Part shown: piece by piece, positions 507 to 12,576 of the stretch
Numbering within the stretch: the first letter of the stretch is position 1
Layout: the number at the start of each line of letters is the position of its first letter
NCBI GenBank assembly: GCA_016874055.1
Contig: VGVG01000001.1
Location: 1-64,000 of the forward strand
Direction of reading: 5' to 3'
DNA: 64,000 nt
Origin: Gammaproteobacteria bacterium
GTDB lineage: Bacteria; Pseudomonadota; Gammaproteobacteria; Steroidobacterales; Steroidobacteraceae
The notes under the pieces: generated by a model
What the model saw: the letters and a program-made list of their open reading frames with translations, nothing else
Databases searched by the model: none
Told to the model about the DNA's origin: nothing
Made by a program: the position numbers and the translations under genes

Positions 507-3182
507 CTATTCCAGCTTTTGACGGACGTAGGCGGCCACACTCGAGAGGGCGGCCGGCAACTTGGAGGCGTCGGAACCGCCTGCTTGGGCAAAGTCGGGT
601 CGACCGCCGCCACGACCGCCCACCTGGGCTGCAACGTGACCGACGATCTCACCCGCTTTGACGCGACTGATTTCGCCTGCTGTCACACCTGCGACCAAGA
701 GCACCTTGCCCGCAGCGTCAACCGAGGCGAGAACGATGACAGCTTTTTTGAGGCGATCTTTGAGTTGGTCGACCGCGTTTCGCAGCGCGCCGGCGTCAGC
801 GCCGTCAACCGTAGTGGACACGATCTTGAGGTCACCGACCGCAACAGCACCGGCCGCAAGATCGGTACCCTGCCCCGAGGCGAGCTTCTCGCGAAGCGTG
901 CGAGTTTCTTTTTCGAGTTGACGGAGGCGCTCGAACGCGTCGCGCACCTTGGTGCTGAGACCATCGCGACTGCCGCGTACGAGCGAGGTGAGCTCGCGGA
1001 TCACGGCATCGCCCGTCTCGACTTCAGCGAGCGCGCCCTCGCCGCTCACACCCTCGATGCGACGAACGCCAGCGGCTATGCCGCTTTCGGCGATAATTTT
1101 AAAGAGTCCTATATCACCGGCGCGACTGACGTGCGTGCCACCACAAAGTTCCATCGAAAAATCGCCGATGCGCAGCACCCGTACGTTGGACGTGTACTTT
1201 TCGCCAAATAGCGCCATGGCGCCCGACGCGACCGCATCATCGTAGGCCATTTCGCGCGTCTCAGCGACGGCATTAAGGCGAATTTGCTCGTTGACGCGAC
1301 GCTCGATACGTCGTAGCTCCTCGGCGCTCACCGCCTGAAAATGCGAGAAATCGAAACGTAGACGATCGGACGCGACAAGCGAGCCTTTTTGTTGAACATG
1401 AGTGCCCAATACTTCTCGTAGGGCCGCGTGCAACAGGTGCGTCGCCGAATGGTTCAGCGTCGTAGCACGACGGAGGTCAGCGTCGACCTCGGCGATAACC
1501 GTCATTCCCTCAACAATGGCACCGCCCTCTGCGGTAACGCGACCGATGTGCGAGTGGGCGCCGGCAGAGCCGCGCCTCTGCGTATCCTCCACGACGAAGT
1601 GGGCGTTACCGCCCAACTCTCGTAACTCACCGACATCGCCCTCCTGACCACCGGATTCAGCATAGAAAGGCGTGCGCTCAAGGATGACCTCACCGGTCTC
1701 ACCCGACTTTAATTCTTTGACGCGATCACCGCCGCGCAGTAGCGCGATCACGCGTGATTGGTCTCGCGTGCCACCGTACCCGCAAAAACTCGTGGCGATA
1801 TCGATCTGCGCCTCGACACGTAAATCGACGCCGAAGCGGCTCGCAGCTCGTGCCCGCTCGCGCTGTGCTTCCATGGCGACTTCGAAGCCTGCGCTATCAA
1901 TACCAAATCGGCGCTCGCGAGCAACGTCGGCGGTAAGATCAACAGGAAAGCCAAAGGTGTCGTAGAGCCGGAACACGGTCTCGCCGTCAAGCACGCGCAT
2001 GGCACCCGACTTTGCTGGCTGCTTTATGAGGCGATCGAGTGCCTCGTTAAGCAGTACCATGCCCGTGCTCAACGTTTCGGCAAAGCGCTCTTCCTCTTGT
2101 TTTAACACTCGACGCGTGTGTTCAGCGCCTGCACGCAGCTCCGGGTAAGCCTCGCCCATCTGGGCGTCGAGCGCCGAAACAAGCTTATAAAAGAACGCGT
2201 CATTTATGCCGATCTTGTGTCCGTGACGGATGGCGCGTCGGATAATGCGACGCAGCACATAGCCGCGACCTTCGTTCGACGGCAGTACGCCATCGACAAT
2301 GAGGAAGGTGCACGCGCGGATATGGTCCGCGATTACGCGCAGCGACGGGTTCGAGAGGTCTTTCGTGCCAGCCAGATCCGCCGCAGCTCGAATGATGTCG
2401 CGAAACAGGTCGATATCGTAGTTGTTGGTGACGCCCTGCATCACCGCCGACAAACGCTCGAGACCGGCGCCAGTATCAACCGAGGGCTTCGGCAGCGGCG
2501 TGAGCGCACCGTCTGCTGAACGCTCGTACTGCATGAACACGAGGTTCCAGATTTCGACGAAGCGATCGCCATCTTCGTCAGGCGAGCCTGGCGGGCCGCC
2601 CGGGATGTGCTCGCCGTGATCGTAAAAGATTTCGCTGCAGGAACCGCAGGGGCCGGTATCGCCCATGGCCCAAAAGTTGGAGTGTTCGCCAAGACGCGCC
2701 AGGCGATCCGCCGGGACGCCAATCTCTTTGATCCAGAGATCTGCGGCTTCGTCATCGTCTTTGTAGACGGTGACCCAGAGACGACTTGGATCGAGCTTCA
2801 GCGTGCCGGTGACAAAATCCCAAGCAAAGCGAATCGCGTCACGCTTGAAGTAGTCGCCAAACGAAAAGTTACCGAGCATCTCGAAGAAGGTGTGGTGGCG
2901 TGCGGTGTAACCCACGTTCTCTAGATCGTTGTGTTTGCCACCCGCGCGGACGCAGCGCTGCGAGGTCGCGGCGCGGACGTAGTCGCGGTGGTCCTTGCCG
3001 AGGAACACGTCCTTGAACTGGACCATGCCTGCGTTCGTGAACAGTAGCGTCGGATCGTTGCCCGGCACGAGTGAACTTGAGGCGATGACCGCATGGCCAC
3101 GAGCCTTAAAGAAGTCGAGGAATGCGCCGCGCACATCGGTGGCGCTCATGACGGGCGGTTTACCTGGCTTAGCTGTGCTCAT
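507..3182 (-). CDS. alaS: Alanyl-tRNA synthetase
   Basis: Cytoplasmic class II synthetase that charges tRNA-Ala and hydrolyses Ser- and Gly-tRNA-Ala. About 891 residues from the chosen start, close to E. coli AlaS (876). The N-terminal catalytic part shows [17 protein letters not shown]; the editing domain has the zinc site [11 protein letters not shown] and [13 protein letters not shown]; the C-Ala oligomerisation domain ends [12 protein letters not shown]. The ORF track runs to 3491, but that extension lies in recX sequence and has no family similarity. ATG 3182 (MSTAKPG) overlaps the recX stop, and ATG 3149 (MSATDVRG) is equally possible by length. It is co-directional with recA-recX upstream and csrA downstream. 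Confidence 0.95.
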
Positions 3183-3657
3183 CGGCGGGATTTTCGAGTG
3201 TCTCGGGGTCCTGACCCAGCGCCAGACGAATATGATCCGATGAAAAGCCCCGATACTGCAAAAATCTCGCCTGCTTACCCTTTTCGGCCCAGGTAGCCGG
3301 GGCTTTCTGACCGAACTTCCTCGCCCGAACCTCGCGGCACAGCGAAATGTAGTTTGGCCCTGACTCGATGGCGGCCTCGATAGCCTCGCCCCCGAACCCA
3401 AGCTGCTGCAATTTCTGGCGCATGCGGGCTGGACCCTGCCCGCGCGATGTATGAGCCCGCACGAAATTCTCAAGGAAGCGACTGTCATCAAGCAGTCGCT
3501 CGGCGCGCAAGGTCTTGAGGGCTGCGTCGATGGCCATCCGGGTGTAGCCCTTCACCGTAAGTTTAGCGGCGAGCTCAGAGGAGACGTAGTCGCGACGGCT
3601 GAGCAGCATGAGTGCTGCTCGGCGCGCGGACTCGGGTTGGTCGGGGTGGTCGGTCAA
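3169..3657 (-). CDS. recX: Regulatory protein RecX
   Basis: Modulator of RecA that caps or destabilises RecA filaments. The 162-residue protein is made of three-helix repeats typical of the family: [23 protein letters not shown], then [15 protein letters not shown], and a C-terminal repeat ending [11 protein letters not shown]. Its start overlaps the recA stop by 4 nt (ATGA), implying coupled translation, and its stop overlaps the chosen alaS start. The recA-recX-alaS order is widespread in Gammaproteobacteria. Confidence 0.93.
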
Positions 3658-4682
3658 TCCTTGGAGGACTCGGTGGCCGCACGCCCGGGCTTGACGACCA
3701 GCAGCTTCGCGCGGATCTGGTCTTCGATTTCGCGGGCGATTTTCGAGTTGTTCTTTAGGTACTCACGAACGTTTTCTTTACCTTGGCCGATGCGCTCGCC
3801 TTTGTACGAGTACCAAGCACCTGATTTGTCGATAATGTTTTGGGCAGCGCCGAGCTCGATGATTTCACCTTCGCGCGAAATGCCCTCGCTGTACATGATT
3901 TCGAATTCGGCTTCGCGGAACGGCGGTGCAACCTTATTCTTAACGACCTTGACGCGAGTTTGGTTACCCGTGACCTCTTCGCCGTTTTTGATGGCGCCGA
4001 TGCGGCGGATGTCAAGGCGGACGGAGGCGTAGAACTTGAGGGCGTTACCGCCCGTGGTGGTTTCGGGGTTACCGAACATTACCCCAATCTTGAGGCGGAT
4101 TTGGTTAATAAAAATCACGATGGTATTCGAGCGCTTAATGTTACCCGTGAGCTTGCGCAGCGCTTGGGACATAAGGCGCGCGTGCAGACCGACTTGCAGC
4201 TCACCCATTTCACCCTCAATTTCGGCCTTGGGAGTGAGCGCGGCGACCGAGTCGACGACGACGACATCGACGGCACCAGAGCGCACAAGCATATCGGTGA
4301 TTTCCAGGGCTTGTTCGCCGGTGTCGGGCTGGGAGACTAGGAGGTCGTTGACGTTGACGCCGAGTTTTTCAGCGTAGACGGGATCGAGGGCGTGCTCGGC
4401 GTCGACGAAGGCAGCGGTACCGCCGTTGCGCTGGATCTCAGCGACGACTTCAAGGGTGAGCGTGGTTTTACCCGAAGACTCGGGACCGTAGATTTCGACG
4501 ACTCGGCCGCGCGGCAGACCGCCAATGCCGAGTGCGATATCTAAACCCAGCGAGCCGGTCGAGACGGCTTCGACGTCGTAAGCGGCCGAAGCGTCGCCAA
4601 GGCGCATGACGGAGCCCTTACCAAATTGTTTTTCGATTTGGCCCAGCGTTGCGGACAGGGCTTTCTTACGGTTGTCGTCCAT
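3654..4682 (-). CDS. recA: Recombinase RecA
   Basis: ATP-dependent strand-exchange protein and SOS coprotease acting on single-stranded DNA. The 342-residue protein has the Walker A motif GPESSGKTT at about residues 66-74, Walker [11 protein letters not shown], and the L1/L2 region with [26 protein letters not shown]. All key motifs are present and the length is normal. The start ATG follows GAGGGATTC. The promoter region (4683-4817) has a GATAAT-like -10 but I could not see a full LexA box, only a CTGTATAT half-site far upstream. Confidence 0.98.
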
Positions 4683-4817
4683 GAATCCCTCACGAGGAAA
4701 AACTGACAGGTAGAAGCGCAGCAGATAAATTATCCCACATGAAAACCCTCGCGGAGCGCCGTAAAATTGAGTGAATGCGTTTATTTCGCGTGACGTTCAC
4801 CCGATATACAGGGGCGG

Positions 4818-5300
4818 TCAGGAAGCGCAACTGTATAAACCGCGCAGCGCGAACACGACGGCCTTCCGACGCACGCGGTTGCGATCGCCACGAAAGCGCT
4901 TGACGACCGCCGTGATCGACATTCGATGATTATGCTTGCGCGCAAACGCGAACCACACCGTGCCCACCGGTTTGCCTGGCACCGCGCCGCCCGGCCCTGC
5001 AATGCCGCTGATGGCGACGGCGAGATCGGCACCACTACGTCGAAGGGCCGCTCGCGCAAGCGCGCGTACGACGGGCTCGCTCACGGCGCCGTGACGGCGC
5101 AATGCCGACAGCGGCACACCAACGTGACGATTTTTGGATTCGTTGCGATAGCAGACCCAACCAGCGAGGAACCATTGGGAACTGCCGGGCAGATCCGTCA
5201 GGCACTTGGCGAGCCACCCTCCCGTGCAGGACTCGGCCGCCGCCACGGTGAGGCCGGTGGCGTGCAGTCGGCGCGCGAGTCGTCGAATGTCCTGTTCCAT
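4818..5300 (-). CDS. pncC: NMN amidohydrolase PncC (CinA C-terminal family)
   Basis: Deamidates nicotinamide mononucleotide to NaMN in the pyridine nucleotide salvage cycle. The 160-residue protein is a stand-alone CinA C-terminal domain, with AAESCTGGWLAKCLTD near the N-terminus, VCYRNESKNRHVGVP in the middle and ISGIAGPGGAVPGKPVGTVWFA near the C-terminus, as in the family. It lacks the competence-damage N-terminal domain. It sits upstream of recA, the usual pncC-recA order, and is divergent from the broken mutS. Confidence 0.9.
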   Translation of the reverse strand: MEQDIRRLARRLHATGLTVAAAESCTGGWLAKCLTDLPGSSQWFLAGWVCYRNESKNRHVGVPLSALRRHGAVSEPVVRALARAALRRSGADLAVAISGIAGPGGAVPGKPVGTVWFAFARKHNHRMSITAVVKRFRGDRNRVRRKAVVFALRGLYSCAS

Positions 5301-5411
5301 GATGGGGGGACGATAACAGATCGGCCCGAAGCCCCTCAGCCCATGACCTCACCGGCCGTATCGCCGCCGAACAAAAAGGTAAACTCGCCGGCCTGAATTT
5401 CCCGAGTGTCG

Positions 5412-8050
5412 ATGATGACAGGGTCCGCCGATCACACCCCGGTCATACAGCAATACCTTCGATTGAAGGGACAGCATCCAGATGCCCTCCTTTTTTATCG
5501 GATGGGGGATTTTTACGAACTATTCTTTTGACGATGCGCGTCGTGCGGCACAACTACTCGATATTACTTTGACGGCCCGCGGCCAGTCGGCGGGCGTACC
5601 GATCCCGATGGCTGGCGTACCAGCGCACGCGGTCGATAATTATCTCGCACGTCTAGTGCGTAAAGGTGAGTCGATCGCAATCTGCGAGCAAATCGGTGAT
5701 CCGGCTAGATCGAAGGGTCCGGTCGAACGTGCCGTCGTGCGCATCGTGACGCCCGGCACCGTGACCGATGCAGCGCTACTCGATGAACGGCGTGAGACGC
5801 TGCTCGCTGCACTGATGCCGCTTGCTGCATCGAACGACGAGGCGCTCGATGGACCCTTTGGTCTCGCGTGGCTCGATCTCAGCGCAGGACGATTCTCAGT
5901 CCTCGAGGCAACTGACGCGCAGGCGCTCGCCGCAGAACTTGAGCGTTTGCGTCCGGCTGAACTTTTGATGCCCGAGACGCTTGCCGTGACGCTCGATTAC
6001 AGGTTGCCGGAATCGCTGACGACAGTGCTATCCCCGTGGATGCGACGCGCTCGACCGCCCTGGCATTTCGAGGAAGAGACCGCGACCCGCACGCTCACCG
6101 AGCAACTTGGCACGCTGGGTCTGCACGGGTTTGGCGTGGAGTCGATGCCGCTGGCAGTTGGAGCGGCAGGCGCATTACTGCAATACACCGAAAGAGACGC
6201 AGCGTACGGCGCTCCCCCACCTGCGTACGCTGCGCGTGGAGCGGCGCGAGTCGACGCTGCAGATTGACGCGGTAACGAGGCGGAACCTCGAAATCGACAG
6301 CAGCATAAGCGGGCGCGAGGACGCGACGCTGATCGCGCTCTTAGATAGCACGGTCACGGCGATGGGTGCGCGCGCTCTGCGGCGCCAGCTCAACCGTCCG
6401 GTGAACGATCACGAAGAACTGCGCGCGCGGCTCGCGATACTGGTCGAGCTGGTCGAGTGCGGACGTTACGCCTTGCTGCGCGATGCGCTGCGACCGATCG
6501 GCGACGTCGAACGTATTTTGGCTCGAGTCGCGCTGCGCTCGGCACGACCACGGGATTTGACAGGTCTACGCCTCGCCCTTGCCGCCTTACCGACGCTTCG
6601 AGCGTTTCTCGCAACGCTGTCCTCGCCTCGTTCGACGGCGATCGCGGCGGCTGTGTCGGGCCATGACGCCGAAGTTGCCCTGCTGCAGCGCGCGATCGCT
6701 GAGGAGCCCTCAGCCATGATCCGCGACGGTGACGTCATCGCCGTTGGCTACGATACCGAGCTCGATGAGCTACGTCGGATTTCGACGCACACCGACGCGT
6801 TTCTGCTCGAACTTTAGATCCGCGAGCGCGAACGCACCGGCCTTTCGCAGCTCAAGCTCGGCTATAACCTGGTGCAGGGTTTTTTCATTGAGATCCCGCG
6901 CAGCCAGGCAGATAACGTCCCGAACGATTACCTTCGCCGTCAGACCGTTAAGAATGCGGAGCGCTTCATTACGCCTGAGCTCAAAGTCTTCGAAGATAAG
7001 GTGTTGAGCGCGCGCGAAAAATCACTCGCCCACGAGAAATTTCTTTACGAGGCAGTACTCGATGAGCTCTGCGCGCAGCTAGCTGCGCTACAAGACTCCG
7101 CAGGCGCCATCGCGGAACTCGATGCGATTGGGCCACTCGCCGAACGAGCGGTCAGTTTACGTTGGTCGGCACCGACGCTGACTTCGCAGGCGGCACTGCG
7201 GATCACGGGTGGTCGACATCCCGTAGTCGAACGCTTTCTCGCCGAGCCTTTCGTACCAAACGACATCGCTCTCGATGCCAGCACCCGGATGCTCGTCATT
7301 ACCGGCCCAAATATGGGCGGTAAGAGCACGTACATGCGGCAGGTTGCACTCATCACTCTGCTTGCACACATCGGCAGCTATGTCCCTGCACACTCTGCGA
7401 CGATTGGTCCGATCGACCGCATTTTCACGCGGATTGGTGCAGGAGATGATCTTGCAGGAGGTCGCTCGACGTTCATGGTCGAGATGACTGAAGCGGCGAA
7501 TATCTTACACAACGCCTCGATGCGCAGTCTGGTACTCATGGATGAAATCGGTCGTGGCACAAGCACTTTCGACGGCCTATCGCTCGCCTGGGCCATCGCC
7601 CGTCATCTTGCATCAAAGATTGGTGCGTTTACTTTGTTTGCCACACATTACTTTGAACTGACCGCACTCGCCGCTGAACTTCCTAGCGTACTGAACATAC
7701 ACCTGGATGCCACCGAGCATCGACAGGGTATCGTGTTCATGCACGCGGTGAAACCAGGACCGGCGAGTAAGAGCTACGGTCTCGCTGTAGCCAAACTTGC
7801 CGGAATACCACGTGAGGTGCTTACCGAAGCGCGGCGCTACCTGAATACTTTGGAGGACCAAGCGCGAAAATCGTTGGGGTCCCAAGGGATGCTTGAGCTC
7901 GATTCGGCCTCGGGCACGGCGAGGGAGGTCGAGCCGAGCGACGAACTTGCTTCGGTCCGCGCGGCGCTGAACGCGCTGGAGGCGCTGGATCCCGACTCAC
8001 TGAGTCCGGGTAACGCGCTGCAAAAACTCTACGAACTCAAAAACTGCTGA
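5412..8050 (+). pseudogene. mutS: Broken mutS (DNA mismatch-recognition protein)
   Basis: MutS recognises mismatches and starts repair with MutL. The gene is readable only as pieces. Frame from ATG 5412 gives [32 protein letters not shown] and then hits TGA at 5529. Removing one T from the run 5526-5529 restores [21 protein letters not shown] second extra base, best placed at G6190, breaks LLQYT-(K)[13 protein letters not shown]. The frame then runs to an in-frame TAG at 6815-6817 ([12 protein letters not shown]), where relatives usually have Glu. After it the ATPase is intact to 8050: Walker [10 protein letters not shown], Walker [17 protein letters not shown] and the C-terminal helices. Total length matches a full MutS. 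The first lesion falls right at the mismatch-binding FYE motif. No full-length MutS can be made without correction. Confidence 0.92.
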
Positions 8051-8085
8051 ACTAAACGCAGACAGTTCTATCAGCTTGCGGGCGT

Positions 8086-9849
8086 CTACGGCTGGCGGGC
8101 ACGAATGTGCAATTCGCGTAGCTGCTTATCGGAAACTTCGGTCGGCGCATCGGTCAGGGGACACGCGGCGGTCTGGGTCTTCGGGAATGCGATGACGTCG
8201 CGAATGCTGTCGGCGCCGGAGATGAGCATGGCGAGTCGGTCGAGACCGAACGCGATACCCCCATGCGGCGGTGCGCCAAACTTAAGAGCGTCGAGCAGGA
8301 AGCCGAACTTACGCCGTGATTCCTCGGCGTCTATCCCAAGCAGATCGAATACGGTGGACTGCAAATCCTGACGATGAATACGCACTGAGCCGCCACCGAT
8401 TTCGGAGCCGTTGAGCACCATGTCGTAGGCCTTAGCGAGCGCCTTACCGGGGTCGGTACGCAGGGTCTCGGGATCGAGATTCTTCGGCGAAGTGAACGGA
8501 TGGTGCCTCGCACCCCAACGCTGTTCATCCGAATCGAACTCGAACATGGGGAAGTCGATGACCCACAACGGTGCCCACACGCCCTGCACGAGCCCAAGGT
8601 CGTGACCGACCTTAAGGCGCAGCGCTCCGAGCGCATCGTTGACTACCTTCGCGGAATCGGCACCAAAGAAAATAAGGTCGTTGTCGGCTGCAGCCGTGCG
8701 CTCAAGAATGCCAACCACCGCTGCATCGTCGAGAAACTTGATGATGGGCGACTGCAGACCATCCCGCCCCTTGGCGCGCGCGTTGACCTTAATGTACGCT
8801 AGGCCCTTGGCGCCGTAACGGGCAACGTACGCAGCATAGTCGTCGATTTCTTTACGGGTGAACTTACCGCCGCCTGGTACGCGTAGCGCCGCTACTCGAC
8901 CATTCAGGTCTTTAGCGGACACGGCGAACACTTTGAAGTCGCAGGATGCGACGAGATCAGCAATATCGACGAGCTCGAGCGGATTGCGCAGATCCGGCTT
9001 ATCGCTCGCGTAGCGACGGATCGCTTCGTCGTAGCTCATACGCGGAAAAGGCTTCGGTAATTCGACCTTCGCCACGGTCGTGAAAATGTGGCGAATCAAC
9101 CCTTCCATGATCGACATGATCTCGTCCTGACCGAGGAAGGACGTCTCGATATCAAGCTGCGTGAAGTCAGGTTGCCGGTCAGCGCGCAAGTCTTCGTCTC
9201 GGAAGCAACGTACGATCTGGTAGTAGCGGTCGAAACCGGAGATCATCAGCAACTGCTTGAAGATCTGCGGCGACTGCGGTAACGCAAAGAATTTGCCGGG
9301 GTGCGTACGCGAGGGGACGAGGTAGTCGCGTGCGCCTTCGGGCGTCGCCTTGGTAAGCATCGGCGTCTCGATATCGCAGAAGCCGGCGTCGTCAAGATAC
9401 TGGCGCATTGCGCGCGTGATCTGATGCCGCTGACGCAAGCGCTGACTCATCTCGTCGCGACGCAGATCAAGAAAGCGGTATTTGAGGCGTACTTCCTCGG
9501 AAACGTTTTCGTCGAGCTGAAACGGCAGCGGCTCGGAACGATTGAGCAACTCGATGCTTCGAGCGAGTACTTCGATCTTGCCTGAGACGAGATTCGCATT
9601 GGTCGTACCCTCGGGACGTGCACGCACGAGACCTGTGATACTGACGACGGATTCGTTACGCAGTTTTTCGGCTTCGGCGAACACCTCAGCAGCGTCGGGA
9701 TCACAGACGATCTGTAAGAGACCTTCACGATCGCGCAGATCGACAAAGATCACGCCACCGTGATCGCGACGGCGGTGGACCCAGCCTGCGACGGTGACCG
9801 TGCTGCCAATGAGCGTTTCGCTGACGTGACCGCAGTAATGTGTGCGCAT
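8086..9849 (-). CDS. aspS: Aspartyl-tRNA synthetase
   Basis: Class IIb synthetase charging tRNA-Asp (or also tRNA-Asn if non-discriminating; not decided here). The 587 residues match the bacterial form: N-terminal OB-fold anticodon-binding domain ([30 protein letters not shown]), class II motif 2 [20 protein letters not shown], a GAD insertion domain, and motif 3 [25 protein letters not shown]. It is the last gene of a same-strand group, with a 40-nt gap after the GS-like gene, and converges on mutS. Confidence 0.97.
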
Positions 9850-9889
9850 AAAGGGCGGGGATGTTACAAACTCGGTCGGCCTGCCGCCA

Positions 9890-11227
9890 CTACGATCTGA
9901 GGTACCACGCGCGGTCGAGTTCGGTGACCTGCGCCGAGAATCGATCGCACTCCTGCCGCTTGATCGCGAGGAACACCTTCAAAAACCCCTCTCCCAATGT
10001 GCCCCGTAAAAACTCCGATGCGGCAGCCCGGTCGATGGCCTCGTGCCAGGTCTGGGGCAGCTCGCGCGGACCCGAGTTCTGGCGATAGCCATTACCGGTG
10101 ACCGGCGGGCCCGGGTCGAGCTTTCGATCGATACCTCGTTCGAGGCCGGCCAATACGGTGGCAGCGACCAAGTAGGGGTTGGCGTCGGCGCCGGCGATGC
10201 GATGCTCAATATGACGCGAGTCCGGCGGACCGACGGGGACGCGCAGCGATACCGATCGATTGTTGACGCCCCAGCTCGCCGCAGTCGGCGCATAACTTTG
10301 ACTGCGGAACCGTCGATAGGAACTCCCGTTGGGCGCGAAGACGAGCAGGCTCTCGGCGATGGTGGCCTTGAGTCCACCGATGGCGTGTCGCAGTAGCGGC
10401 GTGCCCGATGGATCGTCAGAGGCGAAAAGATTTTGGCCGTTACCACCGGCGAGGCTCACGTGTACATGCATGCCGCTACCAGCAAGATCGGCGTAGGGCT
10501 TAGCCATGAACGTTACGAGCAGATCGTGACGCGCCGCGACGCCGCGCAGTAATCGCTTGAGCATGACGGCCTCATCGACGGCCCGCATCGCATCGTCGCG
10601 ATGAGCGAGCGTGATTTCGAATTGCCCTGGCGCGTACTCGGACATCAAGGTTTCAGCGGGTATACCCTGCGCACGCGCCGCGACATAGACCTCATCGAAC
10701 ACGGGTGCGAGTTCCTCGAGTCGAGCGAGGCTGTAGGCTTCGATGTGGCCTGGGTCGCGCGCGATAGCACCTGCAGGTGAGGCATCGGTCTCTTGTAGCA
10801 CGTAGAACTCGAGCTCCACCGCGAGCACGGGACGTAAGCCCCGACCTTGTAGCCGAGAAATCGTACGCGCCAGCACATGACGCGGATCGGCGGGCGCTGG
10901 TTCGCTATTGAGTGTGTACATGGACAGCATGACTTGCGCCGTCGGTCGCGAAAGCCATGGCGCACGTGCGAGAGTCCCCGCTACGGGTCGGCAGATGAGA
11001 TCGGCATCACCCGTATCCCAGACGAGTCCGGTTTCATCGACGTCCGTCCCCGTGATGTCGAGTCCAAGAATGGAGCCCGCAACGGGACGGCCATGCAGAT
11101 AAAGCCGCTCAAGCTCGCCGACGCTCGCCGTCTTGCCCCGCGCGACACCGGAGGAATCAGTGATATAGAGCTGCACGGCCTCGATGTCAGGTTGCTGCGC
11201 GAGAAATTCTTTAAGTTCGTTACTCAT
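9890..11227 (-). CDS. Glutamine synthetase family protein (gamma-glutamylamine synthetase-like)
   Basis: The 445-residue protein has the GS fold: N-terminal beta-grasp ([14 protein letters not shown]), metal-ligand segment [12 protein letters not shown]/glutamate segment [18 protein letters not shown], and NRSVSLRVP followed by [22 protein letters not shown]. These resemble the PuuA/GlnA-type III subgroup, which ligates glutamate to amines such as putrescine, more than ammonia-assimilating GlnA; I see no adenylylation-loop signature. It overlaps the upstream aminotransferase by 4 nt (ATGA), so the two are probably translated together. Amine, polyamine or amino-alcohol metabolism is inferred; the substrate is unknown. 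Confidence 0.85.
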
Positions 11228-12576
11228 TGAGGTTGTTCGCTAACGATTACGGCATCGAGAAAACTTTCGATACTTGTACACAGCGCCTCAACCTGCGACG
11301 CCTGAAGCATCGGAGCGGTTAGCATCATGTTATGAAACGGGGTCACCAGCAAGCCACGATTGAGTAACCAAAGATGCAATGTGTGCTCGAACTCAGGCCG
11401 CATCGCAGCCTCAGCTTCGCTGCCATTACGGGGCGCCGGCCCGAAACCAAATTCGATTCTGGCGCCGACGCACGAGACATGCCAATCGAGATTATGCACG
11501 GCGAATACTTTCAGAAGCCCCTGCTCGAGGCGCGTCGCCGCCGCCTGCATCGCCGCATGTGTCGTCTCGGTGTGTAAGTGCGCGAGGGAGGCCTCGAGGG
11601 CTGCAAAAACTAACGGGTTCGCCGCGAGCGTAGTACCCATCCCTGAGTGGCCGCCCGCGCGCGAGGCGAGTACGCACTGCATGCGCGCCTCGACCTCGGC
11701 GGTAAAACCGAGCACGGCGCATGGTAATCCGCCGGCGATTGCCTTACCGCAGACCCAAAAGTCGCCGCTCAACTGGTGCGTACCGGCATAGCCGCCGGGA
11801 CCCGAGGACAACGTATGGGTTTCATCGATGATGAGTAACGTACCGTGACGCTGGCACAGCGACTGCAGGGTTTCGAGATAACCTAGGGCCGGGAGCACCA
11901 TGCCGATGTTGGTCATCACGGGTTCAGCGATAACGGCGGCGATGTCGCCCGCGCGAAGCGCCTGCTCAAGTGCGGCGACATCATTAAACTCGATGGCAAC
12001 GCTCGCCTGCGAATAATCGAGCGCGGAGCCGATAGCCCCCTCGCGCATTACGGTGCGCCCCGCTCGGCGGCGAACCATCGTCTCCTCGACAATACCGTGG
12101 TAACAACCCTGATAAACCATAATCTTTGATCGCTGGGTAAGGGCACGCGCCCAACGTAACGCCGCGCGGTTGGCGTCGGTCGCCGTCTGCATGACCTGCC
12201 AGAAGGGCCATCCAAATCTTCGAGCGAGTTGCTCACCAACGGTTGCAACGCGCTCATCAGGCAACATACAGGTGAGACCGCGCGCCGACTGCAAGCCAAT
12301 GGCTTCGGACACGGCGGGCGGCGAGTGACCGAACATCGAGCCTGTATCACCGAGACAAAAGTCGGTGTAGCGCAGACCGTCGACATCGGTCAGCGTCACG
12401 CCTTCGACGTGCGCGACAAACATCGGATGTGGCGTGCCCCAGTCGGTCATCCAATGCATCGGCACACCGGAGAGCCAATGCGCTCGCGAACGCTCGGCTA
12501 ACGCACGCGATCGCGGTCGCCTCGCAACGAAGGCTGCCCGCTCACTCTCGAGGAGTCGGGACAGCGCGGTAGTCAT
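11224..12576 (-). CDS. Class III PLP aminotransferase
   Basis: The 450-residue fold-type I aminotransferase shows a PLP-contact Asp segment (LLIIDETHTLSSGPGGY), the Schiff-base Lys segment (DFWVCGKAIAGGLPCAVLG) and the class III N-terminal segment LTDVDGLRYTDFCLGDTGSMFGHSPPAV, which resembles glutamate-1-semialdehyde aminomutase and omega-aminotransferases. It is not clearly HemL. Its ATG shares one base with the fmdB stop (TAATG) and its stop overlaps the GS-like gene, so it is embedded in a tight operon. Probably acts with the GS-like enzyme on an amine or amino acid. The exact substrate is not visible. Confidence 0.85.
   Translation of the reverse strand: MTTALSRLLESERAAFVARRPRSRALAERSRAHWLSGVPMHWMTDWGTPHPMFVAHVEGVTLTDVDGLRYTDFCLGDTGSMFGHSPPAVSEAIGLQSARGLTCMLPDERVATVGEQLARRFGWPFWQVMQTATDANRAALRWARALTQRSKIMVYQGCYHGIVEETMVRRRAGRTVMREGAIGSALDYSQASVAIEFNDVAALEQALRAGDIAAVIAEPVMTNIGMVLPALGYLETLQSLCQRHGTLLIIDETHTLSSGPGGYAGTHQLSGDFWVCGKAIAGGLPCAVLGFTAEVEARMQCVLASRAGGHSGMGTTLAANPLVFAALEASLAHLHTETTHAAMQAAATRLEQGLLKVFAVHNLDWHVSCVGARIEFGFGPAPRNGSEAEAAMRPEFEHTLHLWLLNRGLLVTPFHNMMLTAPMLQASQVEALCTSIESFLDAVIVSEQPQ

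Follow-up and report, generated by a model that had tools for sequence, protein, structure and literature searches.

A mutS gene that is probably a recent pseudogene and the start of mismatch-repair loss in a genome-reducing Steroidobacteraceae-like lineage

Introduction

Coxiella-like endosymbionts (e.g. CLEAA) have lost mutSL along with genome reduction, a loss that has been proposed to speed the reduction (PMC4494066), and in Blochmannia mutS is among the genes lost in parallel (PMC4389277). Mismatch-repair mutators that occur naturally and carry mutS null alleles have also been reviewed (PMC8875331). The loss of mutS described here is a known kind of event. We analysed a mutS gene in the window (the whole 64,000-nucleotide stretch of DNA under study), and conclude that it is probably a real, recently formed pseudogene, with which a genome-reducing, Steroidobacteraceae-like lineage has taken its first step towards losing mismatch repair.

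Results

The window holds one mutS on the forward strand (5412–8050), flanked by cinA/recA (3654–5300, reverse strand) and aspS (8086–9849, reverse strand). The cinA/pncC-type gene (4818–5300), recA (3654–4682) and aspS are intact and served as controls, aspS also in the relative-rate test. recX (162 aa; window 3134–3657, reverse strand) overlaps what looks like an upstream extension of the alaS reading frame, and alaS probably starts near 3134 rather than 3491.

As a reference for lesions we used the intact MutS of G014, the nearest well-assembled relative (880-residue open frame), in a frameshift-aware alignment. Read across its lesions, mutS shares 83.5% amino-acid identity overall with this protein and contains exactly three lesions and no others, all of them at sites that an earlier reading of the sequence alone (hereafter the sequence-only reading) had named. 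Domains I–V (Pfam MutS_I, II, III, IV and V) are recognisable across three reading frames or segments. Read from 5412, the gene runs for 39 codons, through the mismatch-recognition motif (GDFYELFF), and then meets an in-frame TGA at 5529–5531, because the run at 5526–5529 holds one surplus T (four in place of the three in relatives' codons; codon 39, window 5527). Domains I and II follow in the second frame, from 5482 to about 6190, where one extra base somewhere within ACCGAAAGAG (6187–6193; codon 260, window ~6191) changes the frame again; the frame entering this stretch ends at a stop at 6265–6267. The third frame carries domain III, then a TAG at 6815–6817 (codon 468) replacing the Glu codon (GAG/GAA) found in those relatives readable there, in the context ...LELExRERERTG, and then domains IV and V up to the stop at 8048. 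Amino-acid identity to G014 in the 30 residues to the left and right of each lesion is 97/97%, 80/87% and 90/90%, respectively. The longest open stretch left that has a start codon (6872–8050, forward strand, 392 aa) encodes the end of domain IV (MutS_IV positions 45–91 of 92) and the complete ATPase domain V (188 of 188 MutS_V positions matched); the sequence-only reading had likewise described the stretches between lesions as MutS-like and the ATPase part as complete.

Comparison with close relatives, which that reading had proposed, found the mutS frame open through the region in 20 of 20 examined. The lesions are spread over 1.3 kb, more than 600 bases apart, and lie 5.4–8 kb from the contig end. 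When 20 curated lesions were placed randomly over 573 genes, at least three fell in mutS in 0 of 20,000 shuffles; three lesions in this gene are strongly non-random and far beyond chance, and lesion clustering in genes is non-random.

The remainder of the mismatch-repair pathway was searched for in the same assembly. A second mutS copy, a possibility raised by the sequence-only reading, was rejected, as the assembly has a single MutS_V locus (1.39 Mb searched, 84% complete). The intact mutL that the same reading suggested looking for was found: it has 599 open codons, is 79% identical to that of G014 and bears no lesion. Its product carries a DAHAAHERVLYE stretch fitting the DxHAx2Ex4E metal motif characteristic of a nicking MutL. 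Since mutH was absent from 10 of 10 genomes tested, the pathway would be MutH-independent.

The assembly (G000) comprises 1,393,987 bases in 29 contigs at 84% completeness and 0.1% contamination, giving a completeness-corrected genome size of about 1.65 Mb, against 2.0–2.8 Mb for most of the genus. Its GC content is 58.4%, compared with 61.0% in the part of G014 examined, and in a MutS tree it groups with G014 and G019, in a genus adjoining a named Steroidobacteraceae MAG. One contig (G000:C29, 1784 bases), which reads only N, is probably rRNA, and the assembly shows no 16S.

To survey gene decay, proteins of 1.09 Mb of G014 were compared with the whole of our genome, and the reverse, using frameshift-aware alignment with flank filters. 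Lesions with well-conserved flanks were present in 18 genes of our genome and eight in the reverse direction (about 573 comparable genes); inspection by eye, which set aside most of the eight reverse matches and several of our 18 as upstream-extension artefacts, left ~14 credible broken genes of ~573 in our genome and at most a few in G014. The identifiable ones are hslO/Hsp33, an Rnm-type phosphatase, an omega-aminotransferase, a DASH cryptochrome (G000:C8:7511, +1 frameshift relative to the sister), a DMT transporter and an aldehyde dehydrogenase, together with truD, a SnoaL-like protein, an SDR, a beta-helix protein and a GST-like protein, all of dispensable types. The last of these, a GST/FzlA-like gene (G000:C5 about 63860–64780, locus L183), has lost one base at three places in T runs and gained a 7-bp tandem duplication, a set of changes that is hard to produce by sequencing error; its product otherwise matches that of the sister at 90–100% identity near the lesions. 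Several T-run indels occur in broken genes other than mutS, albeit in small number and in a form that sequencing error would mimic. The coding regions compared contain more than 70 A/T runs at least seven bases long, few of them broken. The frameshifts in the beta-helix, aldehyde dehydrogenase and truD genes (G000:C6:65228; C8:58950 and 59433; C15:35745) lie less than 1 kb from contig ends, and three such genes are more than expected (p about 0.007). These frameshifts are likely low-coverage assembly errors, and their concentration near contig ends suggests that some indels in the assembly are errors. That the genome is smaller than those of its sisters and is still undergoing gene decay supports a genome-reducing lineage.

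We then placed the gene in its order by searching 248 genomes (at least 90% complete, with our own added); MutS_V was present in 223. Among listed genomes of 2.0 Mb or less (at least 90% complete, our own excluded), five of seven, belonging to three genera, had no MutS (G029, G036, G208, G216 and G217), G014 and G165 being the two listed genomes of this size with MutS_V. None of the five has MutL either, and RecA is retained in every one: a repeated loss of mismatch repair within the order. Most larger genomes without a MutS match retain MutL (8 of 9 tested), the pattern that assembly gaps would give. MutS absence was associated with small size (Fisher p about 1e-4, with five unlisted no-match genomes counted as large). 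The genome-reducing lineage put forward by the sequence-only reading thus gains support from the 1.39 Mb assembly at 84% completeness, the ~14 broken genes and the parallel loss of MutS and MutL in small genomes of the order.

Relative rates were measured as own-specific versus G014-specific amino-acid changes, with G003 as outgroup. Eight neighbours of mutS (window 507–12576 and onward), a regional sample as all adjoin mutS, gave a pooled 164 own-specific against 69 G014-specific changes (~2.4×; binomial p about 4e-10). The count for mutS itself was 51 against 41, a ratio differing from that of its neighbours (Fisher p = 0.02) and the least accelerated of any gene tested; mutS is also near the genome median for identity and for the ratio of nonsynonymous-like to synonymous-like change. 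Random substitutions in mutS yield a stop in about 2.6% of cases and a missense change in 69%, so one nonsense mutation and two indels would need just a few tens of neutral substitutions, invisible at the present divergence. As mutS shows no surplus of amino-acid change, which would be expected only of older pseudogenes, whilst its neighbours are accelerated, the loss is probably young; at the protein level, the lineage's acceleration appears to predate the loss of mutS, which argues against an old loss driving reduction. The claim that mutS was inactivated recently is supported by its single copy, its three lesions and this lack of surplus change.

Discussion

The main rival to a real pseudogene is an intact mutS in which errors of assembly or consensus, arising from low coverage or strain mixture, account for the lesions. 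We regard this as unlikely, though it deserves serious weight: the assembly is an 84% complete draft with other frameshifts near contig ends, two of the three lesions are single-base indels, one of them in a short T run, and mutS evolves at an ordinary rate, its unremarkable change count being predicted both for a young pseudogene and for an intact gene with consensus errors. The sequence-only reading had taken the cleanly open neighbours as evidence against poor sequence. This stands in so far as mutS is 5.4–8 kb from the contig end, but not as a general rule, as some frameshifts elsewhere lie less than 1 kb from such ends. Against error, one of the three lesions, the TAG, is a substitution, all three are over 600 bases apart in one gene amid long conserved genes that stay open, and chance is very unlikely to have put three or more in mutS (the 0 of 20,000 shuffles above). 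The named lesions elsewhere fall in dispensable gene types, one with a 7-bp tandem duplication, and few of the more than 70 long A/T runs compared are broken.

Two further explanations accept the lesions as real. Full-length MutS might still be made by recoding, with +1 frameshifting at UUU UGA C (a prfB-like site), slippage and stop read-through; TTC TTT TGA C at lesion 1 does resemble a slippery +1 site. Slippage may rescue frameshifts in homopolymers of insect symbionts (PMC4389277, citing Tamas 2008 and Wernegreen 2010), which lends recoding some precedent. But the T run of lesion 1 is just four long, with no Shine-Dalgarno-like stimulator at prfB spacing, lesion 2 has neither a stop nor a run at the shift, the TAG needs a third, different event, and the relatives read are without these sites. 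We rejected prfB-like recoding as highly improbable, given the three different events needed. Alternatively, mutS could have been lost long ago, and this loss could be why proteins evolve fast and genes decay in the lineage, as the ~2.4-fold faster neighbours and the several frameshifts that are T-run slippages, as in mismatch-repair mutants, would suggest. A long-dead gene is expected to be the fastest, whereas mutS is the least accelerated (51:41), and coding-region A/T runs were searched for the homopolymer depletion expected of an old mutator and none was found; an old loss is accordingly very unlikely.

If mutS is indeed a recent pseudogene, whichever lesion came first would have abolished mismatch recognition, and with selection on mutS gone, two further lesions could have accumulated before the remaining sequence diverged. 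MutL would be intact but partnerless, so that mutation-correcting mismatch repair should be off. We infer that the cell is truly without MutS and mutates at a raised rate. The hypermutation raised as a possibility by the sequence-only reading would follow from the established function of MutS and is plausible here as a prediction, and the lineage's faster protein change appears to have set in before mutS was lost. More tentatively, and with slightly less than even confidence, we suggest that this genome may be a snapshot of mismatch-repair loss under way in a GC-rich gammaproteobacterial order. Small genomes from at least three of its genera are missing MutS and MutL together, whilst here MutS would be newly dead and MutL intact, the order of events possibly being faster evolution and decay, then mutS, then mutL. 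If the pseudogene is real, this genome shows mismatch repair just as it is being lost, with mutL intact, in an order whose small genomes have repeatedly lost both. It would then permit testing whether mutator status drives or follows genome reduction, present data favouring 'follows', and the intact mutL would make a genome with a dead mutS a useful intermediate.

The five small genomes are the nearest parallel, sharing the order, the small genome and the lack of a functional MutS, but in them both genes are gone outright, whereas the present genome is at an earlier stage. The Coxiella-like endosymbiont CLEAA and Blochmannia likewise lost mismatch-repair genes during genome reduction and show faster lineage evolution; here, in contrast, mutS is nearly full length with three lesions, mutL is intact, and the genome is larger (about 1.65 Mb), GC-rich (58%) and has no known host association. 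Mutators are typically strain-level polymorphisms. The natural mutS mutators (PMC8875331) resemble our genome in having inactivating mutS mutations with the remaining pathway present, whereas here three lesions have gathered in one mutS allele and the mutator phenotype is putative.
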